Below, in pieces: positions 25,274-64,000 of a DNA stretch of 64,000 bases (positions are counted from its first letter, which is position 1; each line of letters begins with the position of its first letter). Origin of the DNA: Anadara kagoshimensis (lineage: Eukaryota; Mollusca; Bivalvia; Arcoida; Arcidae); the NCBI GenBank assembly GCA_021292105.1, contig CM037869.1:9892704-9956703 (forward strand), in the 5' to 3' direction. The notes beneath the pieces were generated by a model. It was not told the DNA's origin. It was given only the letters and a program-made list of their open reading frames with translations, and did not search any database. A program made the position numbers and the translations under genes.

Positions 25274-25279
25274 TATTTT

Positions 25280-25650: not shown

Positions 25651-25660
25651 ATCATCGGGG

Positions 25661-25900
25661 GAGACAAAAAGCATAGACCTGTCTGCTTGACCTTTACCTT
25701 TAATTGAAATATTTATCATGGCCCAGTACATTTATGTATAGGGAACACAGGTGTTTATTTCGCAAACATCATGTCATGAAAAATTGTTTATGTATTTATC
25801 ACGAACCCCAACACTAACTGTACAATGTACTGAATGGACCCACCTATATGGATATTCCTATGAAAGGTCAAGTAGACAGGTCAGTGTTGTTTGTCCATAC
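25661..25900. mobile_element. MITE with GACCTGTCYGCTTGACCTTT ends, copy 1
   Basis: GACCTGTCTGCTTGACCTTT near the left end is mirrored by AAAGGTCAAGTAGACAGGTC near the right end. Both are embedded in a longer outer similarity (GACAAA..CA). A second copy in opposite orientation lies at 61706-61950. The two share interior sequence (GTACATTTATGTATA). Confidence 0.7.
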
Positions 25901-26436
25901 TAGCAATTGGTTAAATTCATCTTGATTTATATATTACCTATCACGCATCGAGGAAATTGTTTATAATTTAATATATGTAATAAAATAGATTATAATAGAT
26001 ATACATCCTTTTGCACCATAAATATATTATACCGTTATTGAACTGATATTGTGAAATGTTGGTCCATTGGTTCGAAAATATTTCACAATATCGGTTCAAT
26101 TTTTGTCTTACAACACATAAAAATGCACTTGTTTTTGTTTACGTATATAAGAACTAGGTATTACAATATTAGCTTTTTGTCTTCAGCCATGATTCAGACG
26201 ACAATGTCACGTTTTAAATTGTGCAGTATGAAAACATAGATTCGGGAACAAAGTTTATATTATTGCACGTTAACACCTCTGTATTTGTCGTTTCTCTTTT
26301 GGTCAATGAACCTATACATACGGCAGTGTTTTAAACCACTCGGGCAGTTCCGGTTTGCACATAGGCCGACAGACAAGATTGCACTCCGACAATCATCACC
26401 ACTCGGGCACGAAGATCACTGTTTGTCAATTTGAAT

Positions 26437-27118
26437 TTATGCAATAGTTTTTATAGTTTTATCTGATACATTAGACGGTGGAGAACTGGATGTGATATAT
26501 TTGTCGTCATTCTTTGATCTCTCACACACGTGACAAAATATAACGTTAAGCGTTTTCTTATACCCCTGTCGGAATCGCGCGTTTGTCGCAGCGTAAAACA
26601 CGGAGTTAAGCGAGCTGTTGGTATGGGCCATCTGAATTACCACAACATAAACGATTTTTGACCAATTGTCATCAAGATCTATGAGAACAATTATGGCATA
26701 AGGTGACCAACACACTAAAAACACACAAAATACGATAAATAACGTCTTGGCTAATTGTAATTCTTCATTCTGTGCTCTTTGTTCTTTTCCTCTAAACGAT
26801 TTGATGTTTTTTCCTGCGATTCGTGACAGTTCCTTCCGTGTTTTACGCACGTACAGAAATATCGAGATATAAGAGAAGAAGACCGTTACTAAGGGAATAC
26901 CGATGGCAACCAGACAAAAGAATATAGTATAGGACAAATCCGCTAGGCGATCATAGCTGCAGGCCATTGTCTTCAAATCAAATGTGTGACCACCCCATCC
27001 GATGAAGTTGGGCATTTCCAGGGCTATACAGATGATCCAGAGAAGTACGCAGTACATCAATGTCTTCTTTGTTGAAAATACTTTGTGAAATATCCGGTTT
27101 TTGCAGATCACGATGTAC
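26437..27118 (-). CDS. GPCR exon 4 (TM4 to C-terminus)
   Basis: Follows a TTTTAG acceptor and completes NRY with YIVICKNRIFHKVF. It encodes TM4-TM7 and a short C-tail. The third intracellular loop is basic (RKTRKELSRIAGKN). The tail is serine-rich (SSSPPSNVS), with possible phosphorylation sites. The stop is at 26437-26439. Confidence 0.92.
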
Positions 27119-41580: not shown

Positions 41581-41747
41581 TAAGAATTGAATTGCACTTT
41601 TTACGTTGTTATCGGGGTGTAACAACGTGAAAATTATCACAAATTGTGTAAAACCGCGTAGCGTAGCGAAGCCGTTTTACACAATTTGTGATAATTTTCA
41701 CGTTGTTACACCCCGATAACAACGTAAAAAGTGCAATTCAATTCTTA
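41581..41747. repeat. Hairpin 2: 74-bp arms, perfect as read, 19-base loop
   Basis: The left arm (41581-41654) begins TAAGAATTGAATTGCACTTT and the right arm (41674-41747) is its reverse complement along the full 74 bases as read. The loop is CGCGTAGCGTAGCGAAGCC. Such identity implies a recent origin or active gene conversion between arms. It resembles hairpin 1 at 1546-1688 in having a GCG/AGCG-type self-similar apex. Confidence 0.9.
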
Positions 41748-42130: not shown

Positions 42131-42775
42131 GGTACAAATTACCGTGTGGGTGATGCAAGTTACAACGTAGCTGACCAAGCTCTCCGAACAGCGCCTAACA
42201 TTCGCGACATTCGGAGCTAGGAGGTGGACGCTGCTTCGGAGCTTGGTCACTGACGTAATAGTTTTTTTTTGGTTTAACACAAACTCCTATAGGGCTGGCA
42301 TACAAATTTAACATGCTACAACACCATCTATGTAATAGTTTCATGAGACATGACACGAATACAAAACAAAAAACGTGTGTTAGGAAACAAAGTCTCGCAT
42401 GGCGGCTGAAAATAGAAAATTAACGTGTGAATGTCCTCCCATGGCGGTTTGGGTACAACTTAACATGTGAATGACGCAAGTTACGACGTCATTTATATAA
42501 CAGTTTCAGGAGAAATGGTACGAATACAGAACAAAAACGTGTGTAAGGAAAAACAAAGACTCCTATGATGGCTGATAATATAAAATAAACGTGTGAATAA
42601 CGCAAGTTACGACGTCATTTATATAACAGTTTCAGGAGAAATGGTACGAATACAGAACAAAAACGTGTGTAAGGAAAAACAAAGACTCCTATGATGGCTG
42701 ATAATATAAAATAAACGTGTATATTACGCAAGTTACGACGTCATTTATATAACAGTTTCCTGGATATTAACACGA
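42130..42775. repeat. 126-bp tandem repeat, two exact units plus diverged flanking copies
   Basis: ACGCAAGTTACGACGTCATT starts at 42474, 42600 and 42726. Between them the units read nearly identically through CAGTTTCAGGAGAAATGGTA, AAAACGTGTGTAAGGAAAAA and CTCCTATGATGGCTGATAAT. Diverged copies extend leftwards (GTTTCATGAGACATGACACG at about 42340; GATGCAAGTTACAACGTAGC at about 42152). Confidence 0.9.
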
Positions 42776-43149
42776 AAACAAACAACTTGTTGATTTTACT
42801 TAGTGATATACAGTTGTCAATACATAGCGGTTTTTATGATGCCGTGTATATTGTTGCTGTCGATATTAGATGTCTATCATCAAATATCTATATTAAACAT
42901 CATAATCGTCATAATTAAATGGCTTATCACTTAATTAATCTGATGCGGGAAGAGAGGAACTTCAATGATATCATTAATACAGAATTGAATTACATTTGAT
43001 TTGATGGAATTTTGCCTTTTCCATGAGTTATTTATGAACAGGTCGAAAGTTCCCTGTCCTTAGACGGAAGTCATAACCTTTTATTGTCCAAATACAATTA
43101 CATTTTAATAATTTTGCGAAAGAAATATTATTAATAATTATTAAAATGA

Positions 43150-44880
43150 CACTTTGGTTATTACAGGTATGGGAATGTATCTGAAACTTCACAATGGATG
43201 GAACCAGTGATGTAGTGATGGAATCTTACCGAAAGATGATAGTCACAAAATCGACTGCTTAAAATTATGTTAAGTTTCCATTGTTTCTGTATTTTGATAA
43301 CATACACTTTTATGTATTAAGGGGTATTGATGATTTCATTACGAAGGAACTGCAGCAACTTCATCCAAATATACAGACTGAATTGTCAACGCAACATTCA
43401 AGGGATGGAGATAAGCTACAATTTTTACTCGGCAATGTACTGAATATAGATTTCCAGGACACTTACAAACAAGAAGCTGTTTTCTTTTTTGTATGAAATA
43501 TTGGATACTAGTTCATTAAATCACATTACATGTTTTAATATTTCATTTCTTTCAGCACCAATAAAAAAATCAAACAACACACAGTTCTGGGGGTCTTTTT
43601 TACGCACATCCCTTATGGTATACCGTTTGTTTGTCTCTCTGTTGGCTTTTTGCGTGTGCATCGAACTGATTTTACAATATATAAGTAAAATATTACGACT
43701 TCAGGAAGTTATGTACGTTTTTTTGAGGTTAAAAAAAACTAATTTGGCTGCCTTACGGCCATCTTAGATTTTTACAATACGCATAATCCTTGTGCAACCA
43801 ACTCTTTTTTCGGGTTTTAAGCAAATGTTTTGAAACTTTGCGTGTGTGTCTATGATAGTAAGTACTCTGATTGTACTCTGAGCATATACAAATGTATTCA
43901 TTCTATCAATTGTTGTTGGATGTTGTATTTGTCACCTTTTGGGTACATAAACTTACTTTTTGCCCATGGTCACACACTTGCAAATTCAACAAACATCTCG
44001 TTTCGACTTTCGTTTTCATACTATTTTCAGTATTATGACAAGTGTTTTTTCACACTATAGCTATTTTCCATATTATGACAAGTGTCTTTTTTGCACTATT
44101 TACAGGACTATGACAAGGAAAAAATTCTTTGTGGTCCCATTTGTCAAAGAAAAGAAAAATAAAGATAGGCACACCAAAAAACCATCATGGACTACCAATA
44201 TCATTATAACACCAAAACGGTCTGCTTTAACTCCAATTCAAAATATACCAAAATGCATTCGTTTCAAAAGCCCTGAACAAATTGTTTTGCAAACAATTGT
44301 TGATGACTACAAAGACATTCAAACTAAAACCGTTGCGACACAAAAAGACGATTTCAACGAGTGTACGTCTATCATTTATAATCAACTGGATATTAAAACA
44401 TTGTTACATATGGGTGACAAATCTGAGCGTATAACCTTTTTCCGTTTGATGAACGATGGTAAATACACTGTTACAAACACTTACTTCTTGCTGTTCTAGA
44501 AACAGCGCGATTCTTCAAAACAACATTTTTAAATTCTATGTACTACTGGTCAAAGACTGAAGGTTCTGGAAAATTGACTTAAAACTATTTCATTCTAAAT
44601 GTCTTTATTTTATGGGTGGGCCAAAAAATATTGGTCAATATACAGACGACTGGCTCGGCAACCAGAGGTAGACCATTGACAGATATTTCCTACATTAACT
44701 TGCTGTACCAAGCTTAAATACATTGTCAAATTTCAACATAAGTGACATACAAATACAAGAATCTATCAAACCAGGAATGTTAGAACCGATATTAGATTCA
44801 ATACAAGCTCACAATATCATGCGCAGATATTTTGATCCAGACACTGACTAAAAGTGAAAGGCGAAAAATTAACATATTAA
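43150..44880 (+). pseudogene. Unidentified coding-like region, possibly several exons or a relic
   Basis: Several plus-strand pieces look protein-like but no family is recognised. At 43321-43480 a frame reads GIDDFITKELQQLHPNIQTE onwards and ends KQEAV. At about 44110-44460 it reads FVVPFVKEKKNKDRH, then IPKCIRFKSPEQIVLQTIVD and CTSIIYNQLDIKTLLHMGDK. At about 44740-44850 it reads ISDIQIQESIKPGMLEPILD and AHNIMRRYFDPDTD. They are in different frames and separated by stops. A decayed transposon gene or a short multi-exon host gene are both possible. The call rests on composition only. Confidence 0.25.
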
Positions 44881-45434
44881 CTGAACTAAGTGTAATATAA
44901 TTACAAAACGCCGGGAAAATTTTAATTACTAGCTTGTTTACAGGCTGCAGTGAATTGTATATTGCGATACTTACGTCTTTGACCAGCCTGTCAAGCGATT
45001 CTCACCGACATGTCATCACAAAATTGCCGATGTTTTCACTTTGCGTATAATTTGCAATATATGTCGTGTTTGCAAGTGTGTAGGAGGCTATTCTACTTGG
45101 ATGACACAAGCTTAGATCGACAGTAGCAATATTTTGGTTAAAACACGACAACATTTACGCACTGAAGCTGATCCGAAGTGTCTAAAGAAACGGCTGGCTC
45201 ATTTAAGTGGTTAAAGACACTGGAAGATGCGTTCGAGTGTCTATTGTTCCGTGGTGTATGTGGTAATTTGCATGCTTATAATCAAAGTATGAAACAGAGT
45301 ACAAAGTAACAACAACTCACCTCGTGTTTGGATTCGAAGCGAGGCTGTGCGATTCCATCATACCTTATTTGCGTGTCACACGAGCGCTTCAGCGATTCTA
45401 ACGTGGAAAGGGTTGTAAGCGGTGTCTATGGTTA
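44881..45434. other. No feature recognised
   Basis: Moderately AT-rich sequence between the unidentified region and the end of the L1-like LINE. Confidence 0.4.
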
Positions 45435-46446
45435 AAAACTTTTTTTATAATGTATATTTTATTGACAATCACAATCAATACTGTTATTTACACATAATAC
45501 AAAACACAATGGATAAATCAACATAGCCAATAATGCTGAAATAAATAATACAAATATAAATGATAAATATTTATTCTAATATAAAATTGAATATTGTACT
45601 TTTTTGTAATCAATGTAGTTTAATTGATGCTGACAGAGGAAAGAGGTTAGAAAAAACGACTTAGAACAGCTGTGCAAAAGGTCTCCAAAATTTTCAAACT
45701 CTTCGATTTCATTTGTTTTAATTGCTTTATGGTTCTGGGTGATAAAATGAGTTTGATAGTACGAAATAAATTCTTGAATATTGAGTGTTTTTCCTTTAAC
45801 CTTTGTTCTAAAGATAAAACTTCTAACTAAAATATAAAAAAAAATTCAAAGGTTTTGTGTCCTTGTTAAAATTCAAAATTCCAAATATCGCTTCTTTCCA
45901 TTTATGTATATGTCTATTTGACATTGTTGTTACTTTCATTCAAAAATCGTTTACAATTTGGTATTTCCAGAATAAATGAGTTACTTTTACAAATAATTGT
46001 TTGTGGCGAGTAATTTATTGTTTATTCTGTATTGAAACCATTGTAAATATGAGTTTTGTGTTGTATAAAAAGGGAGACAATTAGTATTATTCCATTCTTT
46101 TTCACTAAATAAAAATTCACTTGTCCACTTTAATTCATCTGTTTTACGTCTTTTGGATTTTAGAAATACACTATACATATGTTTGCTACCTTTTTCTGAT
46201 TTTTTAATAATTTCAAAGACATTTGGAATAAATGGGCGTATTAGTTTATTATTTTGCTTTTGAATTTTTTTTTAATTTGATTTTACTTTATTTATTACTC
46301 CTAAATATTCTGAAAAATTATATTTTAACTGATGCGGTTTTTTAATTCCTCAAAAGTATAAAACTCATCATTATTATTCATTAGATCTCTTATAAATATA
46401 ACGCCTTGTTGTATTGATACTACTTTCTTGTCGATTGTAAACTCAG
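45435..46446 (-). pseudogene. L1-like ORF2, piece 4 (C-terminus and 3' end)
   Basis: Contains a frame at 46178-45987 with WFQYRINNKLLATNNYL and downstream HLFWKYQIVNDF, the usual C-terminal end of L1-type ORF2. Coding similarity fades near 45640. A short T run (A run on the element strand) at about 45440 is a likely 3' end. Confidence 0.8.
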
Positions 46447-46933
46447 CGGCGTTTTGCATTTGCGCCGATTTTTTTTTCATTTGCGCCGATTTATTTTTTC
46501 ATTTGCGCCGATTTTTTTACAGATAAATCTCAGATAAAATAGGTAATGCGTATGGTCATCTATAACCAACGATTTGACTTCCCGGTTCGTCTCTGTATGG
46601 ATTAGGTCCATCTCTTTGACTGACTTTCAAAACAATGTGAACTCATTCCGGATTTAAACATTATATAGCTTCTATTGAACAGTGGTCATACCCCAGTAAT
46701 ATTTCAAACGGTCTATATATATGGGTTTGATCACTTTACAATGGCCTAATCACAGTCTTCATGAAAATGCTCGATTTGATTGAAATTTCTGGTTTTATGA
46801 ACATACACGGTACTTAAAATATGATACCTAAAACATTTTACAGGTAATTACAGGTAAATCAGCAAATAAAAAAAATAATCGGCGCAAATAAAAAAATAGA
46901 ATTTTCAAAAATCGGCGCAAATGTCATACGGCC
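46447..46933. mobile_element. 487-bp hAT-like MITE inserted in the L1-like LINE
   Basis: Flanked by an exact 8-bp duplication AAACTCAG (46439-46446 and 46934-46941), the target size of hAT elements. Inverted ends share CATTTGCGCCGATTTTT. Near the left end the motif CATTTGCGCCGA is tandemly repeated three times, and two inverted copies lie near the right end. It has no coding capacity. Removing it together with one duplication copy brings ...IWKNSEF and TIDKKVVSIQQG of the LINE into one frame. Confidence 0.9.
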
Positions 46934-47416
46934 AAACTCAGAATTTTTCCAAATACTAGATTTTAGATATTGAAACCATGTTTTACAACAGTTTATCTCA
47001 TTTAGCTCAGTGAACATTTGCAAAAATTGTTGACAAAATTGTTGATTTCTTTACTGGGTATTGTATTTGTTATTAGACTATTCGATGTGATCCCCACGTT
47101 TTTGATTAATTTAATTAATTTAGACTTTTGTGATATTATTCTGTGAATCCATGTTAACTTTATCGCCTTAATGAAACTTTTAAGGTCACTCATTTGTAGT
47201 CCCCCGTTTAAATTGTTTTGTATAATTACTAAACTTTTAATTTTGTCTAGCTTTGAGTTCCATATAAAATTGAAAAATAAGCTTTGTAGATAGTTTATAA
47301 GTTTAGATATTACAAGTGTTTTAATAATTGTTATTCTTCCAAGTGGTGTAAGAATCCTAGAAGATCATAGTTTCCTTAATTCTTTTGTCATAATTCAAAT
47401 CTATTATTTCGTCAAA
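46934..47416 (-). pseudogene. L1-like ORF2, piece 3
   Basis: Minus-strand reading: FDEIIDLNYDKRIKETM, then, after a stop/shift, LTPLGRITIIKTLVISKL, LFFNFIWNSKLDKIKSL, GGLQMSDLKSFIKAIKLTW and IWKNSEF. This is the post-RT linker of an L1-type protein, continuous with piece 2 on the far side of the plus-strand LINE. Confidence 0.82.
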
Positions 47417-47616
47417 GGCTTGTACCGATAATGGAGGCTGAACGAGACAAAGGAAACGACGCGTATATAACATACAACAAGCTGATTGTAAATGGAAGAC
47501 CATATACAGAAACAGGAGGAAGAAGAGGGGCATATACACATGGGGATTCAAGACAAAGGCAAGGACAACGACAAAGAGAAGGACAGGACCATAGAGATTA
47601 GGACAGGCAGCAGGGT

Positions 47617-48520
47617 CAACTTAAATTTTTAGTTTGGAATGTTGACGGTCTAAAGAACAAGGTGTATGATAATGACTTTATTTCATTTGTTAACAATTAT
47701 GACCTTTTATGTTTATGTGAAACATGGCAAAGTAATGATGATACTTTAAGCATTAATGGTTATGAGTGTATAACTGTACCAGGTAAGAAGGTATTTAAGA
47801 AAGGAAGACATAGTGGTGGTGTATCCATTAATTATAAAAATGATTTTTCTGGTGGTATAAGAGTAATAGACAAAAATGAAAATGATATCATATGGGTAAA
47901 ATTGGATAAAAAGTTTTTTAATATAGAGCGTGATGTTTATTTATGTAATATTTATGTACTTCCACATACCTCTGAGGTAAGAAAGAGAGACGATATCGAT
48001 TTTTTTGACATTTTAGAAGTTGACATTGAACAGTATGAGAATAGTGGTACAGTTATACTCTGTGGTGATTTTAACAGCAGGGTTGGTTTGTCTAAAGATT
48101 ACATTGAGAACGATAATTTAATAAATTATATAGATGGTGAAACATTTAATGTAGATGATAATGTAGTCAAAAAATTAAAAAGATCAAATATGGACGGTAA
48201 GACAAATAGTGATGGTAGAAGATTGTTAAATTTATGTAAAAAAACAGAATTGTTAATTTGTAATGGGCGGAAAGGTAGAGACAGGGGTATCGGTAGATTA
48301 ACTTACACATCTGATAATGGTCATAGTGTTGTTGATTATGTAATTATTTCAAAGGATGACTTTGGTTTAATTAATGATTTTGAAATATTAGATTTCAATG
48401 AATTGTCGTGTCATGCCCCTATATATTTTTCTATTGTTCATTATGATACGGAATTTAAACCTTTTAATTACACAGAAACAAAGCTTGTGTTCTGGGATAA
48501 TGACAAGATTGATATTTTCC
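47617..48520 (+). pseudogene. LINE apurinic/apyrimidinic-type endonuclease domain
   Basis: The domain begins with FLVWNVDGLKNK at about 47622, upstream of the first start-like codon. It then has CETW (catalytic Glu), GGVSI, CGDFNSRVG (Asp and Asn), VVDYVI and ELSCHAPIYFS, where CHAPI stands for the usual SDHxPI with the catalytic His. All expected catalytic positions except the variant SDH serine/aspartate pair are visible. This domain nicks the target DNA. The frame stays open until about 48520, where a shift occurs. Confidence 0.85.
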
Positions 48521-48533
48521 GCAGTCAGTTAGG

Positions 48534-50992
48534 TTGTTACTACCTATTTTACATAATACAATGTCTGGTATGGACGGTAGTGACCAACAGAGTATCTATA
48601 GAGCTATTGAAAAAGTGTCGTCTGCATTGTATGATACAACATTTGATATATTTGGCAAAGTTGTACGGCCAGTACGAAATAAGTGTAGTAATACTAATAA
48701 ATGGTTTGATTCAGATTTTAAAACGGCAAGGCCTGCCTTTAGTAAAAGTAGAAATAAATATAATAGATACCCTACAGATGAGAATCGTAGTGAATTTTGT
48801 AAAAATAGAACATTGTACAATAAAATTAAACACAGGGCAAATGTAAATATAAACATGAACAAGGTAAACAATTGTGTGATATTGCTAAGTCTAATCCTAA
48901 AGATTTTTGGAATTTTGTTAAGGGTAAGAAATTTGTAAATAATAATTGTAAGTTAGAATTAAACGATTTTGTTTCTAATTTTAATGATGTGTTTTCAGAT
49001 GTAAATGTAAATAATAATGATGTTGTTGAAGATGAAGAAATTAGTAATACTGTATACAATGATGAGTTAGATAAAGGTATAAGTTAAATGAAAATTGCTG
49101 AGGCAATAAGAAAACATAAAAGAGGTAGAAGTGCATGTTTTGATGGTGTTATTGGTGAAATTTTTATATATGCAGGCGACTTATTGTTATCCCTTTTATG
49201 TAAAATATTTAATTTTCTTTTTGATAATTCTGTTTATCCTAATCAGTGGACAATATATTATAATTCCTATTCCAAAGAAAGGTGATTTAAATGATGTCAA
49301 TAATTATCGTGGCATTTCTTTAAAAAGTGTGATTGCTAAGTTGTTTTCTATTGTAATTAATAATAGGTTATTGAAGTGGGCTGAGATATATTATCTGATA
49401 AACAATTTGGGTTTCGCCCAAACAAATTCACACTGGATTGTATTTTTGTTTCAAACTCCGTTGTGACAGATACTTTGTGTAAAGGCAACAAGTTATTTAC
49501 AGCATTTATAGATTTTAGAAAGGCCTTTGATGCGATTCCTAGAAATATGTTATTTTTAAAATTAGTCAATACAAATATAAGTAGCAAAATGTGTAACATG
49601 ATTAGAAGTATGTATTCCACGGTTAAAGCAGCTGTACGTTATAACAATGTTATGTCTGAACCATTTGAGTTCTTTAGTGGGGTAAAACAAGGCGAGCCAT
49701 CATCTCCACTTCTATTTTTATTTTTATAAACGATTTAGTTGATTACGTTTTTACAGAGCAAAAAGATGCAGTTATTATAGATAAACATATGTTGTTCACA
49801 TTATTATATGCAGATGATACAGTTCTTTTTTCTAAAAGTAAGGAAGGGTTACAATTATTATTAGATAAACTTCAAGTTCTTTTGTGACACATGGGGTATA
49901 CATGTAAATGTTGATAAGAGTAAAGTTATGGTTTTCTGTAATGGCAAAAAGTCTATGGATGTCCAAATATTTTATAATGGTGTGTTACTAGAAGTAGTAG
50001 ACAAATTTATTTATCTAAGTTTACTTTTACATTATAATGGTTATTGGAATGAATCCCATAATAGAATTTGTGAGCAAGGCTCAAAGCATTACATAAACTT
50101 CTCACTATTTTTAAAAATGTATATTTGCCAATTGATAGGAAATTGTACTTATTTGATGTTATGGTTAGTCTTGTTTTAAATTATGCATCAGAAATATGGG
50201 GATTTCATAAAGCCGAAAATATAGAACGTTTACATTTTAAATTTTGTAAGAGAGTACTCTGTGTAAACACAAAAACAAATAATATGGCTGTTTTAGGGGA
50301 ACTGGGTAGATATAGATTTTAAGAATTGCGTTATTGTCAAATTCTCAAGTTTTGGTTGAAAATTATAAGTAGTGATAAAGATGCATTGAGATATAAAGTT
50401 TACAAATTATTGTGTAATAATATTAATGTTAAGAGAAATTTAAAACATAACTGGGCATTTAATGTTAAAAATTTGTTGTGTACTATGGGAATGTCTGATG
50501 TTTGGTATAATCAAAATATGTATATTGTTCCATTTGATGTGCTGAAGCAAAGATTACATGATCAATTTTTACAACTGTGGTATTATAGTAACTTGAATTT
50601 ATCTACAAAAATGAAAACATATATATCTTTTAAACAAATGTTTGGTTTAGAAAATCATTTCATTTTTATCGAAAATAAGAGGTTTTAGAGTATTATTAAC
50701 AAAATTTAGAATAAGTAACCATGACTTAGATATTGAGCGTGGTAGATTTAATGACATAGATAAAAACTTGCGTTTTTGTACTTGTACATGTTGCAACATG
50801 AAAGTTATTGAAAACGAAAACCAATTTTTGTTGGTCTGTCCAAAATACATATCATTAAGACATCGTTATTTACCGAAATATTATTGTCATTGGCCAAATC
50901 TACAAAAGTTTTATTGTTTAATGGGGGATAAAAGGAAAGAAATTATTACAAACGTTGCAAAATTTATATTTAATGCATTTAAATTAAGATGA
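48534..50992 (+). pseudogene. LINE reverse transcriptase and C-terminal Cys/His region, frameshifted
   Basis: Successive frames carry the pre-RT linker (WFDSDFKTARPAF), DFWNFVKGKKF, then RT motifs: IPIPKKGDLNDVNNYRGISL, FIDFRKAFDAIPR (motif A), GVKQGEPSSPLLF (motif B) and YADDTVLFS (motif C, YADD at 49807-49818). The thumb (FIYLS...) and a C-terminal CTCTCC......FLLVCPKY..LRHRY motif follow. Catalytic aspartates are intact but the frame is broken several times, so no protein is expected. Some shifts could be sequencing error. Confidence 0.85.
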
Positions 50993-51104
50993 AATATTTT
51001 GTAAAATAATGTATTCAATTTTTTCCTGTGCATAATGATTGTTGTTGTATGGCTATAAACATGATTGTAATATGTTTAATGCTAATAAACTAAATTAAAA
51101 TTGA

Positions 51105-51626
51105 AATTTAATGAAAAATTTATACCTAACAAAGAAATATATTCAGCATTACATTCAAATTTATACCTACATTTAAAAGTTTCCCCACAAAAACTTTTTT
51201 ACAACCTCTTCAAACAGATTTACATTTAGAGTCGTTAATATCCAGACCAGATATTTTTGCAAAATAATCTAGAACTTTTAAGGTTTCTCCCTGAGGAGGC
51301 TTTGGTGCGTCTAAAATAAAAGTGGTACATGTATCATCTGCAAATGGAGATATTTTGTGTTCTTCGGTACTGGTTGTGATTCTCTTTATACTCTTATTAT
51401 TTTCGACTAGAATATATAATATTTCTGTACATAGTAAAAAGATATAGCTTGAAATTGGATCTCCTTGTCTAACCCCTCGTAATATTGAAAAAAAAATCAG
51501 ATAAAATAACTATTCTGTATTACTGCTGCAGTGATATTTGTGTAGAAAACGTTAATCCCATTTTTTAATATTTTCCCCAAAATTAAAGAAATTTAAAACT
51601 TCAAATAAAAACGGCCAGGCTTCACT
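51105..51626 (-). pseudogene. L1-like ORF2, piece 2 (RT palm)
   Basis: Minus strand: EAWPFLFEVLNFFNFGENIK, WINVFYTNITAAVIQNSY, RGVRQGDPISSYIFLLCTEI, then FADDT in place of the usual (Y/F)ADD motif C, SGLDIN, and after a shift LGINFS. Bounded by the LTR element on the right and the plus-strand LINE on the left. Confidence 0.83.
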
Positions 51627-52666
51627 TGTAACGAACCCGAGAGGCCGATACCTGGACACCTAGTCAATAAGTATTTATCAATACTTTCAGTTCCGATTAT
51701 AGTTTCTGTTATTGTTATATCAGGACAGAAAATGGGTATTTTCATTGAATATTTTGATGACAGTTCTTTCAAACAACAAACAATTTTAACAACATCTTCA
51801 TAACATGAAACATTAAATGTTATTGTTCCCATAGCACAGCATAACACAGCATAACAAGCTTTTACACAAAATCAACACTTTCTTCGGAACAGTTAAAACA
51901 AACTTGTAGTATCACACAGTCCTTCGGTGATCAACCGCACAGTCCATCGGCAACATATTTCAAAACTCAGCAATTATATATTCCTGTGGTTGCTACCATA
52001 ACCATTACCAATGACTACAATGTATGAAACAAGTTATGTCTGAGTATTAAGGCACTAAAACATTATATTACTAACCCATTTCACTTATATATATAAGTAG
52101 CAACATCCGGTGTACGATCAATACAAAGTGTACGAACTTTTAGATTGTTTACGGTAATAACAGATATATTTACACCAATAACACAAAATCATTAACAGCA
52201 TAATTACAAAGTAAATTCCTAAAAAGACACATAATAAATGTTAAAATAGCCACATGTTTATAGAATTATCAAGCAGGTTCAGTATTTAGTCCGCAATATA
52301 AAGTTTTGTATTCACGTAGCATGTATATATATAATGTCACAAAAATCACGCATGTAAACTGCGGCGAGCTTTTAAAGTGGACTAACGATATATATAAGGC
52401 TACAAAATACATAATAATTGAGTGTACTCACCCTCGAGATATTCTTAAGACTTTGTTAGTTAAAATTTCTAATACATTTCTTATGGCTGAACCAACACGT
52501 TCATAAACAAACCACACTTTGAATAACTTCCGGACCCAATAACCAATCAAAACACTGGGTACACTCAATTATTCACGATGGCGAACAGCGCACAATTACC
52601 GTAAACATTATAAAAAAGTAGACACGATAAAATTATAAAAAAAATATAACAATGTCATTGGTGACA
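51627..52666 (-). repeat. 3' LTR of the Gmr1-like element (1040 bp)
   Basis: Begins TGTAACGAACCCGAGAGG and ends GGTGACA on the plus strand. It aligns along its length with 57105-58229 but with many substitutions and small indels, plus one gap of close to 100 bases relative to the other LTR near 51955. Confidence 0.92.
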
Positions 52667-52678
52667 ACTCTTCCCTCC
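52667..52678 (-). other. Polypurine tract
   Basis: Minus strand GGAGGGAAGAGT lies directly against the inner edge of the 3' LTR, the position where plus-strand DNA synthesis is primed. Confidence 0.8.
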
Positions 52679-52742
52679 GTAGAAAAAGATGTGCAACATC
52701 TTTACAAGCAGTCTTTTTGAATTCCTCCAAAGTTCGACTTAG

Positions 52743-54464
52743 TTAGTCCGCTCCAATATTTTCTCGTCCTGGAATTGCTTTTATTCTCATACGATATTGC
52801 TGTAGAAGTAAAGCCCAGCGCATTATCCTTGCGTTAGCAACTTTGCTCTTTGAAAGTGATGTAAGCGGTTGGTGATCTGTTTCAACCACAAATTCCTTTC
52901 CTAACAGGTATTGTGAGAATTTGTTCACACCCCATACAAGTGCCAAGCATTCTTTTTTAATAACGGCATATCGTCTTTCCCGAGGTAACAATTTACGACT
53001 GGCATATGCTACTGGATGCATTACACCATTCAATTCCTGAAGTAAGACCGCTCCAATGCCCAAATCAGAAGCATCTGTCCTTAAAACGAATGTCTGGTGT
53101 ATATCAGGTAAGCGAAGGATCGGTTCCGATGTCAATAACTTCTTCAGTGTAGCAAATGCATTTTCCTGTGGCTGATTCCACTCTACTTTATTCGGCATAC
53201 CCTTTTTCGTTAGATCGGTAAGTGGTACTGCAATTGTAGAAAAAATGGGAATGAACTTCCTGTAGTATCCAGCTAAACCGATAAAAGATTTAACCTGACG
53301 TTTTGTAATAGGGTGAGGAGCATTACGTATTGCCAGTATTTTATCCGGAGTCGGTTTCAAAATCTCTTGACCTATTATGTGCCCTAAACATTGATACAGT
53401 CCAAACGGAGTAGTGAAAGCGCTCTTCCGCTTTGCACTATCAGTGATAGGTACTTGCCAGTATCCTTTGCTGAGATCAAATTTGCTAAAATGTTTACATC
53501 CAGCTAATTTCACGAATAGATCGTCGACTGAAGGCATTGGTTCAGCCTCAAAGATAGTAGCTTTGTTCAACTGCCTATAATCTACACAAAACCGATAGGT
53601 AGAATCCTTCTTACGTAACAAAACCACCGGTGATGAATAATTAGAGTCGGACAGTTCTATTACATCCATGTCCAGCATCTTTTGCACTTCAGTTTTGATC
53701 GCTTCACGTATTGTATAAGGTATCGGAAATGGCTTGACCCTTATTGGTTCCTCTGTTGTTGTTCTAATATCATGTGTTGCTAAGTGAGTCCGTCCTGGGA
53801 GGTCTGTCATAACACAACTAAATTCCTTTAACAAAGTTTCTATTTCCTTCCGTTGATCCACATTCAACTCGTCAGATATGTGTACATCATTTAAAGTCTC
53901 AGTAGGGTTTAACTGTAACAACATCAATGGAGATCTGTCTGTTTCGTTCATGTGTCCATCCTCACTGTCCTCAAACGTTTCCTCTATGACTGATATACTT
54001 GCACACGCAAACACACCTTTGGTTTCTACATCCTCTACGGCAAAATTTTTATTCCTATCTACATATTCCTTCAACATATTAATATGAAATGTTTTTATCT
54101 TACTATACATTTTAATGCGATAATCTACGTCATTCAACTGTTCAACAATCTCTAATGGTCCTTTCCATTGAAGCTGTAGTTTATTCCTCTTCATCGGAAG
54201 TAATACTAAAACTTTCTTTCCAACTGTAAGATTTCTCGCTTTTGCTGCTTTGTTGTAATTCTTTGCTTGTTTAACCTTTGCCTGTTTTAAATTCTCATGT
54301 GCCAACTTGCATGTTTCTTCTAATCGCTCTCTTAGATCAAGTACATATTGATATGTTGTTTTGACGTCCGGATCTGGTACATCCTTCGTCCATAATTCTC
54401 TTAAAATCCTTAGAGGTCCCCTTACAGAATGTCCATATATCAACTCAAACGGAGCAAAACCCAA
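52743..54464 (-). pseudogene. Gmr1-like pol: integrase C-terminus, reverse transcriptase (deleted palm), RNase H
   Basis: A 573-codon frame. Residues 1-130 or so complete the integrase, including a GPY/F-like module (LQLQWKGPLEIVEQL). A linker follows, then RT: SPVVLLRKKDSTYRFCVDYR and motif A FSKFDLSKGYWQVPI. After FGLYQ the protein jumps straight to CLGHIIG, which normally lies about 80 residues further on. Motif B and the catalytic Y(L/V)DD are therefore gone, without loss of frame. The connection and RNase H follow: LRTDASDLGIGAVLLQ (Asp), KKECLALVWGV (Glu), ETDHQPL (Asp), ending GRENIGAD. This copy cannot reverse-transcribe. Confidence 0.9.
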
Positions 54465-55200
54465 ACTCTCTGAGGAACTTCGCGATAGGCGAATAACAAG
54501 GCATTCACATACCTATCCCAATCTTTAGGGCACTCAACACACATTCTGCGCAGCATCTGTTTTAATGTCCCATTAAACTTTTCAACCAATCCGTTGCAAG
54601 CGGGATGGTACGGTGTTGTCGTAAGTTGTTTGATTGATAAAAGTCGACTAACTTCTTGCATTACTTCAGAGGTGAATTGCGAACCCCGATCAGATAATAT
54701 TTCGCGAGGTATTCCTACGCGGCTAAACACATCAACCAAAGCCTCTGCTATGTCTGTAGTTTCAATACGCTTCAATGCGACTGCTTCAGGATATCTCGTG
54801 GCAAAATCTACTATTGTCAAAATATACCTATATCCCCTATCTGACGCAGGATATAACGGTCCAATCAAATCCACGGCTACCCGATCAAACGGTTTATCGA
54901 TTATAGGCATATCACCAAGCGGGACCTTTCTGACACGTCCTTTCTGTACAGTCCGTTGGCATACATCACACGATTTGCAGTATCTCGTAATGTCTGCATT
55001 AATACCTGGCCAAAAGAACTCCATCAAAATTCGATCAACAGTCTTTGTTATACCTAAGTGTCCAGACATTACCGAGTCGTGACCTAACTTCAACACCGCC
55101 TCGCGATACTGTTTTGGTACCACTAACTGAGTACGCGTTCCTCGTTTGTCAATACGTTCTCTAAGTAGAATATCATTCCGTACATAAAATCTAGTCTTAA
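54440..55200 (-). pseudogene. Gmr1-like integrase (zinc finger and DDE core)
   Basis: The 227-codon frame (55123-54440) has an HHCC-type zinc-binding segment (H15, H22, C52, C55) and a catalytic triad D85 (AVDLIGP), D145 (SDRGSQFTS) and E181 (NGLVEKFNG). That gives exactly 35 residues between the second Asp and the Glu. The same reading can be extended upstream to about 55200 without a stop. A single-base shift at about 54450 separates it from the downstream frame: its end REVPQ should join GFAPFELIYG. The domain inserts the cDNA. Its place ahead of RT is the key diagnostic of the element. Confidence 0.9.
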
Positions 55201-55222
55201 CTCCATTGTAGATTCTTTTATA

Positions 55223-55468
55223 TTATTCTCTTCCGCTAATTTCCAAAGGAACGAGTGTTTCATCATGAACTTGCGCATTTTTAAAATCGATCGGATCAAC
55301 GCCTTGTATCTCGGCTGGAACTAGTAATTTATCCGTTTTGCTTGCTCTAACTTTCATTCCTCTTGTTTCAACTGCGCTAATAACTTTCTCCCAATTATCA
55401 TTTGGATTGTCGGGTGGATGTGCACCGGGAATGTTACCGATTATCACGTCATATAGCGGCGATTCCAA
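55223..55468 (-). pseudogene. Protease-to-integrase linker frame of the Gmr1-like pol
   Basis: An 81-codon frame starting MESPLYDVIIGNIPGAHPPD. The ESPLYDVIIGNIPG motif marks the end of the retropepsin in related elements. It continues the protease begun at the end of the gag frame after a one-base shift near 55490. It stops before the integrase. Confidence 0.75.
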
Positions 55469-55482
55469 ACACCAAGCATTAG

Positions 55483-56868
55483 TTATTCCGCTGAAATATG
55501 GAGAACTATTTTAACTTGTGCAACCGGAACTATAACCTCACTACCATCGACTAATTTGCATGTTTGTTTTCTACCAAGCATTTCACTGTCTTTAACTAAG
55601 GCTGCCCGTATAACAACGCCATTACAACCAGTGTCTCGTAGTACTAAAACCTGTTCTGTTCCTAAACGACCACTTACAACTGGCATTGATTCTTTTTGCA
55701 ACGACTTAAAATCGCAAACATTCGCTAATTTACTTTCCGACTGGGGTTGCGGGTTTTCGATTTCTACTGTGTCAGTGTTTTGTTCGTTTAACGGTGAGGC
55801 ATGTACTCCTGCCGCTTTTCCTCTTTCAAACTTTCGCGGACATTTATTTGCCAGATGGTCAACGCTATTACAAATAAAACATCTTTTACTAAATTTTGGC
55901 GCTTTCATTTCAAAGTTCTTTTCTCCTTCTTTATGTGGTTCATTTCGCGATCTGGGCTGAACTTGACTTTGAACATTCGATTGTCGCATATTTAAAGTTT
56001 TGACTCTCTGAGTAAACACACGCGCTTTGCTACCGCGAGCTTCAACAAACTGGTCAGCAAGTTTGGACATATCACCCAAACTAGACGGAATCCTTTCGCG
56101 CAAAAACAGTTCTAGTTCACCACTGCAACTTAATAAAAATTGTTCACGTAATAACAAATCCCTTAAACCCTGATATGATTTCGGACATTTCGCTAAATCA
56201 ACCCATCTATCAAAATAATTAGCAAGCCTCATAGATAACTGACTAAATGTCTCGTTTTCTTCCGCACGACTTTCGCGTAATCGCTTTCGAAAACCTTCCT
56301 CGGTGTAATCAAATCGTTTCAATAACGCTGCTTTGAGTTCTGCATAGTTTAATGCTTGTTCTGGGGCTAAACGCGAAAATACCTCTAATGCTTTGCCTTT
56401 CAGTAACGTACTTAGACCAAGAGCCCACTTATCCACAGGCCAACTTTGAGCTTGTGCAAATGTTTCAAATCGTCGCAAATACGCATCCATATCGTCCTTC
56501 GTATCATCATATGCTGGTAATTTTGGATTATATTTGAACAACGTCGTACTAATACTTTCCGGTTTACTCTCCATTTCAATTTTGCCTTTCGTTTTTTTTT
56601 CAGTTCTAACACTTCAAGTTTCCTTTGGTGTTCTTTGTCAGCTTCCTTACTTCTCTGTTGTTCCAAATCCATTTCCATTGCTAACTTTTTTTCTGTTGTT
56701 GTATCTCTTGTAACTTCCATTTCTTTCTTCATTTATTTGTCTCTCCTCGCGTTCTTTAGCCCTATCCTGACGTTCCATTTCTTGTTGTTCTTTGACAAAT
56801 GTTTGCAATGCTTCATCTACATATCCTAACTGTGTTCCCATTTCAATAATTTCTTTAAGACGTTCCAT
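55483..56868 (-). pseudogene. Gmr1-like gag with SCAN-like capsid, CCHC knuckle and start of protease
   Basis: The N-terminal coiled coil (MERLKEIIEMGTQLGYVDEA, then E/K/R-rich) starts at 56868 but needs two frame changes, near 56735 and at a homopolymer run near 56590, to reach the main 363-codon frame (56574-55483). That frame has a capsid region. Residues 85-180 or so (LKAALLKRFDYTEEGFRKRL...LLLREQFLLSCSGELELFL) resemble the SCAN domain, which is thought to derive from a Gmr1-like Gag. A CCHC knuckle follows (C232, C235, H240, C245), then the retropepsin active site DTG at 314-316 (VLRDTGCNGVVIR). The frames are fused in the order Gag then protease. The shifts disable it unless they are sequence errors. 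Confidence 0.88.
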
Positions 56869-57082
56869 TTTTGTTTGTGGGTTTGAAACGCAGAGTAAAT
56901 TTCAAATAAACAAATAAATCCTACCTATACCTATTGAATATTCCCGAGGTCATACTAACTACCTTAAAACTGACTTAAATACAATCACATATAATACAAC
57001 AAAAATCACCTATCAAATAAACAAAATGTCCATAATCTTCAGACTGGAATTACTATGTCCATGTATCACAGCACACTGATGG

Positions 57083-57100
57083 ATCCCACCGCTGCCACCA
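57083..57100 (-). other. Primer binding site matching tRNA-Leu
   Basis: The plus-strand ATCCCACCGCTGCCACCA equals the 3' end of a eukaryotic leucine tRNA including its CCA, so the minus strand is its complement (TGGTGGCAGCGGTGGGAT). It starts 4 bases inside the 5' LTR. Match to tRNA-Leu is from memory of metazoan sequences. Confidence 0.75.
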
Positions 57101-57104
57101 TAAT

Positions 57105-58229
57105 TGTAACGAACCCGAGAGGCTGATACCTGGACATCTAGTCAATAAGTATTATCAGTGCTTTCAGTTCCGGTTATAGTTTCTGTTATTATATCAGGAC
57201 AGAAAATAGGTAATTTCACTGAATATTTTTATGACAGTTCTTTCAAACAACAAACAATTTTAACAACATCTTCATAACATGAAACATTTAATGTTATTGT
57301 TCACATAGCACAGCATAACACAGCTTTTACACAAAATCAACACTTTCTTCGGAACAGTTAAAACGAACTCGTAATATCACACAGTCCTTCGGTGATCAAC
57401 CGCACAGTCCATCGGCGGCTAAACAGGTACCACTCAATCCATCGGTGACACCTATAGCATCTGCACATTCCATCGGCAGATTAAATTACAAGTATATTAA
57501 CAATCTGTTCCAAGAAACACGCAACATATTTCGAAACAGCAATTATATATTCCTGTGGTCACTACCATAACCATTACCAATGACTACAATGTATGAAACA
57601 AGTTATGTCTGAGTATTAAGGCACTAAAACATTATATACTAACCCATTTCACCTATATATAAGTAGCAACATCCGGTGTACGATCAATATAAAGTGTACG
57701 AACTTTTAGATTGTTTACGGTAATAACAGATATATTTACACCAATAACACAAAATCAACAGCATAATTACAAAGTAAATTCATTAAAAGACACAGAATAA
57801 ATGTTAAAATAGCCATACGTTTATAAATTATCAAGCAGGTTCAGTATTTAGTCCGCAATATAAAGTTTTGTATTCACGTAGCATGTATATATAATGTCAC
57901 AAAAATCACGCATGCAAACTGCGGTGAGTTTTTAAAGTTGACTAACGATATATCTAAGACTACAAAATACATAATAATTGAGTGTACTCACCCTCGAGAT
58001 ATTCCTAAGACTTTGTTAGTTAAAATTTCAAATAAATTTCTTATGGCTGAACCAACACGTTCATAAACAAACCACACTTTGAATAACTTCCGGACCCAAT
58101 AACAAATCAAAACACTGGGTACACTCAATTATTCACGGTGGCGAACAGCGCACAATTACCGTAAACATTATAAAAAAGTAGACACGATAAAATTATAAAA
58201 AAATATATATAACAATGTCACTGGTGACA
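57105..58229 (-). repeat. 5' LTR of the Gmr1-like element (1125 bp)
   Basis: Same TGTAACGAACCC...GGTGACA ends as the other LTR. Carries an additional segment near 57415-57530 containing repeated CCATCGG motifs, absent from the 3' LTR. Promoter elements should lie here but none is assigned. Confidence 0.92.
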
Positions 58230-58610
58230 TCACTGTCATATGTTTTTTTGAAAATCGATAATAAACAACATCCCAGGGAAATCTTTTCGTTCTGTAAATT
58301 CAATTATTTGGTATATTAATCTTATATTTTCTCCAATATATAGCCCGCTTTTAAATCCGGTTTAGTTTTCTGAAATTAAGTTACTTAGCATCAGCTTTAA
58401 CCTATTTGCTATACAGATATATGCTATTTTATATACCGCGTTTAAGAGAGATACGGACCTCCAGTTATTTAAAAATTGTCTATCTTTATTCTCCTTTGGT
58501 ATACATGTTATGATCCCTACTCTTTGATTTATAGATAATTGGCCCAATGAATACCCGGTTAAAAACTTTATACACCATTACATCATGGTAGACTTTTTTC
58601 TTTCACATTT
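58230..58610 (-). pseudogene. L1-like ORF2, piece 1 (RT fingers)
   Basis: The frame at 58547-58362 reads QLSINQRVGIITCIPKENKD, FLNNWRSVSLLN, VYKIAYICIANRL. It continues after a stop-free stretch to TGFKSGLYIGENIRLIYQII and FPGMLFIIDFQK (start of RT motif A), ending at the LTR border with TCACT. Past about 58610 similarity is lost, so the LINE is 5'-truncated or its 5' part is unrecognisable. Confidence 0.83.
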
Positions 58611-58779
58611 ACATTTACTGATGTTGTCGTATTGGGCAGTCAAAATCGAACCGAAACCCCTAAGGAGATGGAAAGGTCCCGAATACAGTCCTCACCGTGG
58701 CAATCCAAATAAAAACAAACTTATTCATGTTCAAAAGTAAAGTAAAAACTTCAAAGGAAGCAAATTAAGTTAAACGCAT

Positions 58780-58990
58780 GGATTTCCACCAGGGAAGCGA
58801 GGACGGAACCTAAAAAAGGAAGCAGCTCCTGTTTAGCTAGCTACATCAGCTACGTGTGCAAAATGTTAAGAATGAAAGGAAAACGAACCTATTAGTCCGT
58901 GGGCTAGGTGAACCCACCGTGCACCCCCCCCCCCCCCCCCCCCAGGATCCTCCGACGCAACTTTTTTCTGGTACCTTATATGGGATGTCA
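58780..58990 (-). repeat. Dispersed repeat R1, copy 8, with a poly-C run
   Basis: Minus strand: ATGGATATATTTGACATCCC, then an interruption including a run of about 21 G (58923-58943), then TTCCTTTCATTCTTAACATT, ACACGTAGCTGATGTAGCTA and GCTAAACAGGAGCTGCTTCC. The R1 landmarks continue on both sides of the G run. Confidence 0.65.
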
Positions 58991-60260
58991 AATATATCCA
59001 TGACAATGACACAATACTTATCAACGATACTGTGATGACGCCCATGAAACTTTTTAAAACTTATTAACTTGTTTTCCTTTGACATGTAGAACATAATCAA
59101 GATATGTTTTTAGGTAAATTAATCTTCATTTTCAGACTGATGTAAATAAAAACAGACCGGCAATAATTTACTATTTAATATAGTGACTGTCTTTTGATAT
59201 CTTTGGAAGTTCTCATTATCATTGTACCACATCATAATCAAAACATAAATGTTAATATATCTTTTCAATCTTTGCGAAAAACATTATCCCAAGGGTTTTA
59301 AATGTAATAACTTCTTTTTTACGTTGTACCTGCAAGTTCAAAGACAATAGAAAACAATTAGCAATGGCGTGTGTTTTATTTGCTATTTGTCACGTATGGT
59401 ATTTCGTTTGAAGCACAGACACTTGGGGCCAGGTATTTTTCAATTTATTATTTTGTCAACCCAACAATTATATATTTTGCTAATTTATTTTATCTGACAA
59501 CGTTCTGAACTAAATGCATTGATTTTATTGAAATTTAAAATTTTCTTAAATTTTTCTATATAAAAAAGAACAAGGCATGCTACTTCAAATTTGTTTCTTC
59601 GTTTTTAAACCCCATTTTATTGTTGTTCGTACATTGTTAAATCTAAGTGTATATTATCTTTAGGATTTCTATTTCAATAACACACACAACTTTTCCTGAA
59701 AAAAATAACAAAGTTTTATCAAAGCGCTGAAAACACTGACCAATTACGACAGTGAAGAATTCGTTTGTTTCTGTTAGAGGCTCTCTCTACAGAATGGTTC
59801 ACAAATTCTATATCGGAGGTGTTCCGATAATAATGCGGTAATCGATAAGTTCCGAAGACTCTTATATTTGACATTTCGGTGCTTAATACAAAACGCTTGA
59901 AACTGACGATAAATAAAAAGTGCTTGAAAAGGATTAAAAATATTGCAGAAAAAGACATAGATATGCAAAAAATTAGATTTGCTGTTTGTAAAATGTCTCA
60001 ACGTGTAATTAGAAATATGTACAGCCCTAAGGACCTGACGCGGTAATACTGGCTTCTTATTTCTCAGATTTTTCTAAAAATCTTTCCTCCTACTTATTCT
60101 ATCATAAATAAATTCTGATAGATCTTGTTGTTTTTCTTCTTTGTATTAATTTACCAGTTGAAGATAAATACATGTACTTGCATTGTGTGATATGGAACAT
60201 GGACGCCAAAAATACATAACGCCGTATAATGATATACACAGAAAGACTCCGAAAACTCTC
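58991..60260. other. AT-rich non-coding stretch
   Basis: No gene supported. Two overlapping minus-strand frames at 59719-60001 show no domain. Confidence 0.45.
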
Positions 60261-60264
60261 TTCT

Positions 60265-60560
60265 GTTACACTACGGTAGCTTAGAGTGCCAGTGTGATAT
60301 GTTGGAGATTGTGGGTTCAAACCTCGGCTGGATCTGGTAAACTTAAAAGGGACTGTTCTTTTGACAAGTACTTGAGATTTAGAAATGAAAGTCAAGGAGT
60401 CCTTTGGAAGAGACTTTAAAAACCGAAGCCCCGTGTCAGGACAGGTTGGTCCTGAGTGCACTGCAAAGTTAACAATTTTTGGCCACTTCATCTATAGCTT
60501 GTGACGTCTCGATATAAGTGAAGTATTTTTGACTGGGACGTAAAACCCCATTTAATCAAT
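60265..60560 (+). mobile_element. tRNA-derived SINE, copy e (diverged)
   Basis: Degenerate A-box (CGGTAGCTTAGAGTGCC) and B-box (GGGTTCAAACC), then GGGACTGTTCTTTTGACAAG and the tail CTCGATATAAGTGAAGTATT with TTTGACTGGGACGTAAAACC and a terminal ATCAATCAATC repeat. Confidence 0.8.
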
Positions 60561-60899
60561 CAATCCGATAGTTCTATGTTACTTCTGTGTTCTTTAGGGA
60601 CCTTATTAAATTCTTATTTACGTCGTTTGTTTTGTAGTTACAACATGTTTTGCTAGTCTATGTAAAAAGTTGACCTCAATTAAGAAGTGTAGTAGAGTAA
60701 TGAATTGTTACCTGTCAGTCACTTATATCGAGGTAGTAGAGAAAACTGGAGAACCAAGAAGAACCACCTACTCGGTAAGCGACTTTATAAAATTTTTCAA
60801 GTCAGAATCCGTTCCGAGTGGGATTCGTACTCGTGAATCCTTCCGAAGACCAAGTCTAACTAGAAACACTGTGAGCCACAAGCTCACAAAAAACCCCGC

Positions 60900-61105
60900 T
60901 CCACCACATAAAAAAATCCATCGGATCATATTTTTACATCTACATTATATCACAAAGATTGTGTGAAAGTTTCATGAAAATCCACTGAAGGGTTTAGGAG
61001 GAGTTGCGGATAAGAGATAGGTGCCCTAAGGTGTAACGGAAGGACGGACGGACACCCTATCACTATATGCCCCCACACTTTGTAAGCGGGGGGGGGGGTA
61101 TAAAA
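60900..61105 (+). repeat. Probable dispersed-repeat tail with GGACGGACGGAC
   Basis: GTGAAAGTTTCATGAAAATC, TTTAGGAGGAGTTGCGGATA and GGAAGGACGGACGGACACCC, ending near a G run. Sequences with the same TTTCATGAAAAT...GGAGGAGTTGCG...GGACGGACGGAC order are, from memory, widespread in mollusc DNA. Only one copy occurs here. Confidence 0.45.
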
Positions 61106-62289: not shown

Positions 62290-64000
62290 ATTGACGCTTG
62301 CTGCTGTTTTCTTGGTGATGTTTTTGTTAATGACGCGTTATTTCCTGGTTGTAGTCGTATTCTCGGTGATGTTTTGTTAATGACGCGTTATTTCCTGGTT
62401 GTAGTCGTATTCCCGGTGATGTTTTTGTTAATGACGCGTTATTTCCTGGTTGTAGTCGTATTCCCGGTGATGTTTTTGTTAATGACGCGTTATTTCCTGG
62501 TTGTAGTCGTATTCCCGGTGATGCTTTTGTTAATGACGCGTTATTTCCTGGTTGTAGTCGTATTCCCGGTGATGTTTTTGTTAATGACGCGTTATTTCCT
62601 GGTTGTTGTCGTATTCCCGATGTTGTTTTGTTAATGACGCGTTATTTCCTGGCTGTAGTCGTATTCCCGGTGATGTTTTTTGTTAATGACACGTTATTTC
62701 CTGGTTGTAGTCGTATTCCCGGTGATGTTTTTGTTAATGACGCGTTATTTCCTGGTTGTTGTCGTTTTCTCGGTGATGTTTTGTTAATGACGCGTTATTT
62801 CTTGGTTGTAGTCGTATTCCCGGTGATGTTTTTGTTAATGACCCGTTATTTCTTGGTTGTAGTCGTATTCCCGGTGATGTTTTTGTTAATGACGCCTTAT
62901 TTCCTGGTTGTAGTCGTATTCCCGGTGATGCTTTTGTTAATGACGCGTTATTTCCTGGTTGTAGTCGTATTTCCGGTGATGTTTTGTTAATGACCCGTTA
63001 TTTCTTGGTTGTAGTCGTATTCCCGGTGATGTTTTTGTTAATGACGCGTTATTTCCTGGTTGTAGTCGTATTCCCGGTGATGTTTTGTTAAAGACGCGTT
63101 ATTTCCTGGCTGTAGTCGTATTCCTGGTGATGTTTTTTCTTAATGACACGTTATTTCCTGGCTGTAGTCGTATTCACGGTGATGTTTTTTGTTAATGACA
63201 CGTTATTTCCTGGCTGTAGTCGTATTCCCGGTGATGTTTTGTTAATGACGCGTTATTTCCTAGTTGTAGTCGTATTCCCGGTGATGTTTTTGTTAATGAC
63301 GCGTTATTTCCTGGTTGTAGTCGTATTCCCGGTGATGTTTTTGTTAATGACGCGTTATTTCCTGGTTGTTGTCGTTTTCTCGGTGATTTTTGCTAATGAT
63401 GCGTTATTTCCTGGTTGTAGTCGTTTTCTCGGTGATGTTTTGTTAATGACGCGTTATTTCCTGGTTGTAGTCTGTTTTCTCGGTGATGTTTTGTTAATGA
63501 CGCGTTATTTCCTGGTTTTAGTCGTATTCCCGGTGATGTTTTGTTAATATAATGACGCGTTATTTCCTGGTTGTAGTCGTATTCCCGGTGATGTTTTTGT
63601 TAATGACGCGTTATTTCCTGGTTGTAGTCGTATTCCCGGTGGTGCTTTTGTTAATGACGCGTTATTTCCTGGTTGTAGTCGTATTTCCGGTGATGTTTTG
63701 TTAATGACCCGTTATTTCTTGGTTGTAGTCGTATTCCCGGTGATGTTTTTGTTAATGACGCGTTATTTCCTGGTTGTAGTCGTATTCCCGGTGATGTTTT
63801 GTTAAAGACGCGTTATTTCCTGGCTGTAGTCGTATTCCTGGTGATGTTTTTTCTTAATGACACGTTATTTCCTGGCTGTAGTCGTATTCACGGTGATGTT
63901 TTTTGTTAATGACACGTTATTTCCTGGCTGTAGTCGTATTCCCGGTGATGTTTTGTTAATGACGCGTTATTTCCTAGTTGTAGTCGTATTCCCGGTGATG
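62290..64000. repeat. 51-bp satellite with a 714-bp higher-order period, runs off the window
   Basis: About 33 head-to-tail units of GTTAATGACGCGTTATTTCC, TGGTTGTAGTCGTATTCCCG, GTGATGTTTTT. Unit length is 50-52 bases because of a variable T run. The unit series beginning TGACCCGTTATTTC at 62991 recurs in the same order at 63705, including AAGACGCG, TTCCTGG, TTCACGG and CCTAGTTG variants. The offset is 714 bases, which is 14 units. Since 51 is divisible by three, it gives frames with a 17-residue period. They are not regarded as genes. Confidence 0.95.

Follow-up and report, generated by a model that had tools for sequence, protein, structure and literature searches.

Do the reading-frame fragments at 45.4-58.6 kb in this 64,000-nucleotide stretch of the Anadara kagoshimensis genome belong to one transposon cut by later arrivals, and if so, in what order did these arrive? 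The stretch (hereafter the window, meaning all of the DNA analysed) spans C13:9892704-9956703, C13 being the contig that contains it. A first-pass annotation had described a minus-strand open reading frame 2 (ORF2) of an L1-like long interspersed nuclear element (LINE), cut by a miniature inverted-repeat transposable element (MITE), a plus-strand LINE and a Gmr1-like long terminal repeat (LTR) retrotransposon. With a probability of about 0.93, we read the locus as an ordinary two-level transposon nest, in which the L1-like host came first, the MITE and the plus-strand LINE followed in either order, the locus then separated into two copies, and the LTR element arrived last.

The genome searched comprises 1.115 Gb in 36 contigs. 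The queries were seven pieces taken from the window and three from fetched loci, and the counts from these searches cover scored places among longer candidate lists. The search with host piece C (Table 1) gave 40 scored places among 210 candidates, and 30 loci were extracted; leaving aside the locus itself and its second copy, described below, 28 paralogs were compared with the host LINE pieces.

Paralogs of the host lack all three insertions

Both flanks of the MITE site are present in 24 of the 28 paralogs and are joined in all 24, with an overlap of exactly 8 bp in 16, of 6-7 bp in seven and of 0 in one. The flanks of the plus-strand LINE were found together in 23 paralogs, joined in 23/23 and identically in 22, and those of the LTR element in 18, joined in 18/18 and identically in 16; at the LTR site the exceptions are L037 and L038, whose flanks lie 39 and 5 bases apart, respectively. 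Paralogs left unscored at a site lack one flank where the LINE copy or the fetched stretch ends. Guest sequence, whether from the MITE, the plus-strand LINE or the LTR element, had no match in any of the 28 paralogs. As the printed joins show, uninterrupted paralogs carry the target sequence once at each site, not twice; in the window the MITE is bordered by an 8-bp duplication and the LTR element by a 5-bp duplication, both already recorded in the first-pass annotation. All four host pieces, in unchanged order, have their matches in one set of paralogous LINE copies and not in different LINE families. These results support three independent younger guests in one host LINE, which had correctly been named the oldest component. 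Chance repeats were considered as a source of the duplications and are ruled out by the paralog empty sites. The earlier description of a "four-layer" nest has to be given up: the depth is two levels, with the three guests side by side and none inside another.

Removal of the guests had also been said to restore one ORF2 reading, and this stands as homology but only partly as a frame. When short flanks (90 bases on each side of the insertion) were joined, the MITE site read WKNSEF-TIDKK in one frame, and the LTR site gave an unbroken TYDSE-AWPF, the frame shifting by one base a few codons farther upstream. At the plus-strand LINE site, LGINFS and DLNYDKR, between which continuity had been claimed, are both present but lie in different frames in this copy. 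The two paralogs that were translated, L043 and L054, are open through all three sites, with LGINFS and DLNYDKR in one frame. A single restored gene is not obtained: the host copy carries stops and frameshifts and, being 5'-truncated, never was a complete gene.

Table 1. Features of the nest, in window coordinates
Feature	Position	Strand	Basis
Host target site duplication, left, GGTTAAAAACTTT	45430..45442		same pair in second locus copy
Host piece C (3' end and C-terminal part of ORF2)	45443..46446	-	paralogs match contiguously with piece B
MITE target duplication, left, AAACTCAG	46439..46446		sequence
MITE, 487 bp	46447..46933		imperfect terminal and subterminal inverted repeats, CATTTGCGCCGATTT motifs
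MITE target duplication, right, AAACTCAG	46934..46941		sequence
Host piece B	46942..47413	-	paralog matches
Plus-strand APE-type LINE, ~3.7 kb, several frameshifts	~47414..51103	+	apurinic/apyrimidinic endonuclease (APE) and reverse transcriptase (RT) domains
Host piece A (C-terminal part of RT, FADDT)	51104..51626	-	RVT_1; L1 ORF2 in PDB; paralogs
LTR element target duplication TCACT, left	51622..51626		sequence
Gmr1-like element, 3' LTR, with one gap of ~104 bp relative to its partner	51627..52666	-	LTR comparison
Open reading frame: C-terminal part of integrase, then RT (gap of ~75 residues relative to Ty3 RT), then RNase H	52743..54512	-	domain matches
Integrase: H2C2 zinc-binding domain and rve core	54440..55222	-	Pfam
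Gag: SCAN-type capsid domain and weak zinc-knuckle match	55483..56613	-	Pfam
Gmr1-like element, 5' LTR	57105..58229	-	LTR comparison
LTR element target duplication TCACT, right	58230..58234		sequence
Host piece N (N-terminal part of RT; truncated 5' end of host)	58235..58556	-	paralog matches
Host target site duplication, right, GGTTAAAAACTTT	58557..58569		same pair in second locus copy

The host is a 5'-truncated L1-like LINE

The four minus-strand host pieces sum to 2321 bases within the limits 45443-58556. Their outer ends are bordered by the direct repeat GGTTAAAAACTTT, listed as 13 bp, which could be 10-13 bp long, the last TTT possibly belonging to a poly-A tail; the same pair occurs in the second locus copy at C13:8279093 and 8285627. 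This duplication of the host itself had been overlooked in the first-pass annotation. Among the 19 loci matching piece N, paralog matches end at 58557 in 15, so that the copy is 5'-truncated and never was complete. Piece A matches RVT_1 with an E value of 7.4e-7, just under the Pfam cut-off, and the best PDB matches of the host RT are LINE-1 ORF2 chains (E ~1e-8) together with one other reverse transcriptase chain, 8c8j. The host thus shares with L1-clade LINEs an L1-ORF2-like RT, 5' truncation and a 13-bp duplication typical of target-primed insertion; it differs in keeping only the 3' 2.3 kb, ORF1 and the endonuclease region having been cut off by the truncation, and its assignment, to clade level, comes from the PDB matches. 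Over piece A, the divergence K between the host copy and 15 paralogs is 0.074, and among those paralogs the mean K is 0.010 and the maximum 0.030. The family is therefore young outside this copy.

The three guests

MITE relatives were sought in the same way; of 124 genomic candidates 40 were scored, and 30 loci were examined. Sixteen of these loci had both ends recognised, and 15 of the 16 carry 8-bp duplications with at most one mismatch; the 16 are not all independent, because three pairs among them are duplicated loci. An 8-bp target duplication is hAT-like, and hAT elements are known to have CAG ends. The MITE resembles hAT-like MITEs in being short, without an open reading frame, and in having inverted repeats and 8-bp duplications, but its ends are CGGCG/GGCCG, and the likeness to hAT comes from duplication length. 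The MITE locus pairs L004/L007, L012/L016 and L024/L026 have matching flanks and lie 0.8-1.8 Mb apart on one contig, making three further pairs among the 30 loci; same-contig duplications or retained haplotigs may thus be common in this assembly.

The plus-strand LINE encodes an APE endonuclease (PF03372, E 2.3e-11) and a reverse transcriptase (RVT_1, E 4.2e-12). Of the 19 other matching places, 11 share the 5' end at 47413, and in most places listed the 3' end lies near 51100-51110; with both ends recurring in other copies, the element is a full-length insertion. Most relatives listed are ~91-96% identical to it. No target duplication longer than 2-3 nt was found at its ends, and the join and the empty site are alike but for a few nucleotides. 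In PDB its RT matches 8gh6 (reverse transcriptase-like protein) and R2 proteins best, ahead of L1. To our knowledge, R2 elements have no APE-type endonuclease, and the plus-strand LINE is therefore given no clade.

The LTR element occupies 51627-58229 (6.6 kb), starts with TGTAACGA, ends with TGGTGACA, and has TG...CA LTRs. Its Gag carries a SCAN domain (PF02023, E 3.4e-7, 30.4 bits against a cut-off of 27), and its gene order is Gag, integrase, then RT and RNase H. Integrase ahead of RT is the Gmr1 order according to passages in PMC8220671 and PMC6238403, and a passage in PMC3424704 derives the SCAN domain from a Gmr1-like Gag. The element shares both features with the Gmr1 group of Ty3/gypsy elements, placement being by gene order; relative to Ty3, its RT is ~75 residues shorter. 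The ~104 bases missing from the left LTR are present in its partner and in several listed genomic copies. Spacing between the LTRs is 5478 bases here and 5835-5843 for adjacent LTR matches on C3, C5, C8 and C18; the shorter spacing would fit the gap in RT together with that in the left LTR. The two LTRs differ at 36 of 1016 sites (K 0.0364, standard error 0.0061). Elsewhere, at C5:5407758-5420573, three LTRs of the Gmr1-like family follow one another at a spacing of 5835 bases, as a tandem LTR-internal-LTR-internal-LTR array would show.

A second copy of the locus dates the LTR insertion

A second copy of the locus lies on C13 (8.247-8.293 Mb), 1.66 Mb from the nest, and spans the whole window, from window base 1 at C13:8246779 to the array at the window end. 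Window 42482-51626 corresponds to C13:8276085-8285303 (95% identity) and window 58230-59753 to 8285299-8286758, with one TCACT common to both matches. The MITE and the plus-strand LINE are present in this copy, and the LTR site is empty and reads GGCTTCACTGTCATATG. Because the LTR element is absent from a copy that keeps the other two guests, it was inserted last. The LTR element came after the separation of the copies and the MITE and plus-strand LINE before it, and the guests are therefore not of one age class.

First, target-primed reverse transcription by an L1-type LINE would have produced the 5'-truncated copy and its 13-bp duplication. A MITE, whose transposase was presumably made elsewhere, and an APE-type LINE would each then have entered this dead copy, in either order, the MITE with 8-bp duplications. 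The locus would next have existed as two copies on one contig, and a Gmr1-type LTR retrotransposon would finally have integrated in one of them, duplicating TCACT. The insertion events themselves follow from the duplications and the empty sites, and the sequence of middle insertions, copy separation and LTR insertion follows from presence and absence in the second copy; we infer the enzymes behind the insertions from the families of the elements.

Three points weigh against this history. First, the plus-strand LINE has no clear duplication, and its insertion is read from the paralog empty sites and the shared 5' end. Second, the LTR-LTR K exceeds the divergence of the locus copies on the left side (198 differences in 8007 sites, or 0.0247, in 43000-51095; p 0.055), but not that on the right (65/1552 in 51104-59750; 96/2751 when 59800-61000 is included; p 1.0 against this wider right side), and is consistent with an insertion shortly after the copies had separated locally. 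The left and right sides differ from each other with p 0.0002 when the right side is cut at 59750 and p 0.006 when the less diverged 59800-61000 is added, in a test whose cut at the LTR site was picked after the numbers had been seen. Third, if conversion moved sequence between the copies, the order of separation relative to the MITE and LINE insertions is less sure.

Alternative explanations

The alternative that survives best is that the second C13 copy is the other allele, kept in the assembly as a retained haplotig, so that the LTR element would be a present/absent polymorphism in one individual; we take this as a serious possibility, though at less than even odds. It would agree with the 97% identity over 43300-45400, a flank found at full length at only two places among the scored hits, with the large indels between the copies, and with the same-contig pairs of other MITE loci. 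Against it, gap-free divergence between the copies runs from K ~0.02 to 0.13 within 40 kb, K being 0.045 at 30909-34836, 0.10 at 27661-28413 and 0.13 at 25172-27201. The partner of a single-copy probe at C13:10.2 Mb, located at 8.603 Mb, is only 83% identical, and a probe at 8.70 Mb, which is a repeat, had no partner near 10.36 Mb; a probe at 8.42 Mb is a high-copy repeat and uninformative on duplication versus allele. The range of divergence favours duplication with an uneven history more than two alleles, without deciding between them. Tentatively, and with some doubt, we suggest an intrachromosomal duplication of at least 46 kb (probably >300 kb), with K of 0.02-0.03 around the nest and up to 0.13 within 20 kb, in which conversion would keep overwriting the nest stretch and the LTR element would have been left in one copy only.

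Loss of an LTR element that predated the separation is very improbable. LTR divergence is indeed not below that of the locus copies, but the second copy shows a single TCACT without any LTR, whereas recombination between the LTRs leaves behind a solo LTR plus both target copies, and conversion from a third, empty copy would be required. Least credible of all is that the host pieces are unrelated LINE fragments joined by chance or rearrangement, as the uneven identity to paralogs (~82% in piece C, 91-92% in pieces A and N) and the differing reading frames might suggest, since each of the four pieces matches the same paralogs, in order and with exact joins, the outer ends bear one common 13-bp duplication, pieces A and N adjoin in the second locus copy, where the LTR element is absent, and the lower identity of piece C is spread over its non-coding 3' end, gaps included.

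Other features of the window

Pfam gave no match for the frames at 47005-47364(-), 58365-58577(-), 45990-46271(-), 50651-50989(+), 43951-44496(+) and 58239-58361(-). At window 1540 a repeat begins that extends to at least 2000 and is 98-99% identical to 38 other scored genome places; its inverted arms, 51 bp each, occupy 1541-1591 and 1643-1693. In the second locus copy the match ends at 1545, so that the repeat looks like a recent insertion here. Window 5950-15045 is a 9-kb tandem array with a 94-bp unit and ~92% matches, and 62314-64000 is a tandem array with a 51-bp unit that continues past the window end and is also found in the second locus copy. Further stretches remarked on are 40317-41744 and 34837-35154.

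Significance

Reading relative ages from insertions of one element into another is established practice, as PMC3014933 indicates. The transposition-in-transposition chronologies of TinT and REANNOTATE share this principle and work with genome-wide counts; here one locus is read with empty sites from paralogs and from a duplicated locus. A literature search on nested transposons in molluscs found nothing on the point. Every part of the nest belongs to a known kind of element, the host was already truncated on insertion, and we see no function for the nest itself. Little changes beyond this one locus, the arrangement being ordinary for a repeat-rich genome.

In summary, the open reading frame fragments in 45.4-58.6 kb are pieces of four mobile elements and not host genes, which provides a check on annotation boundaries, and the locus is a clean worked case of relative dating, with a paralog empty site for each insertion and a duplicate-locus empty site in addition for one.

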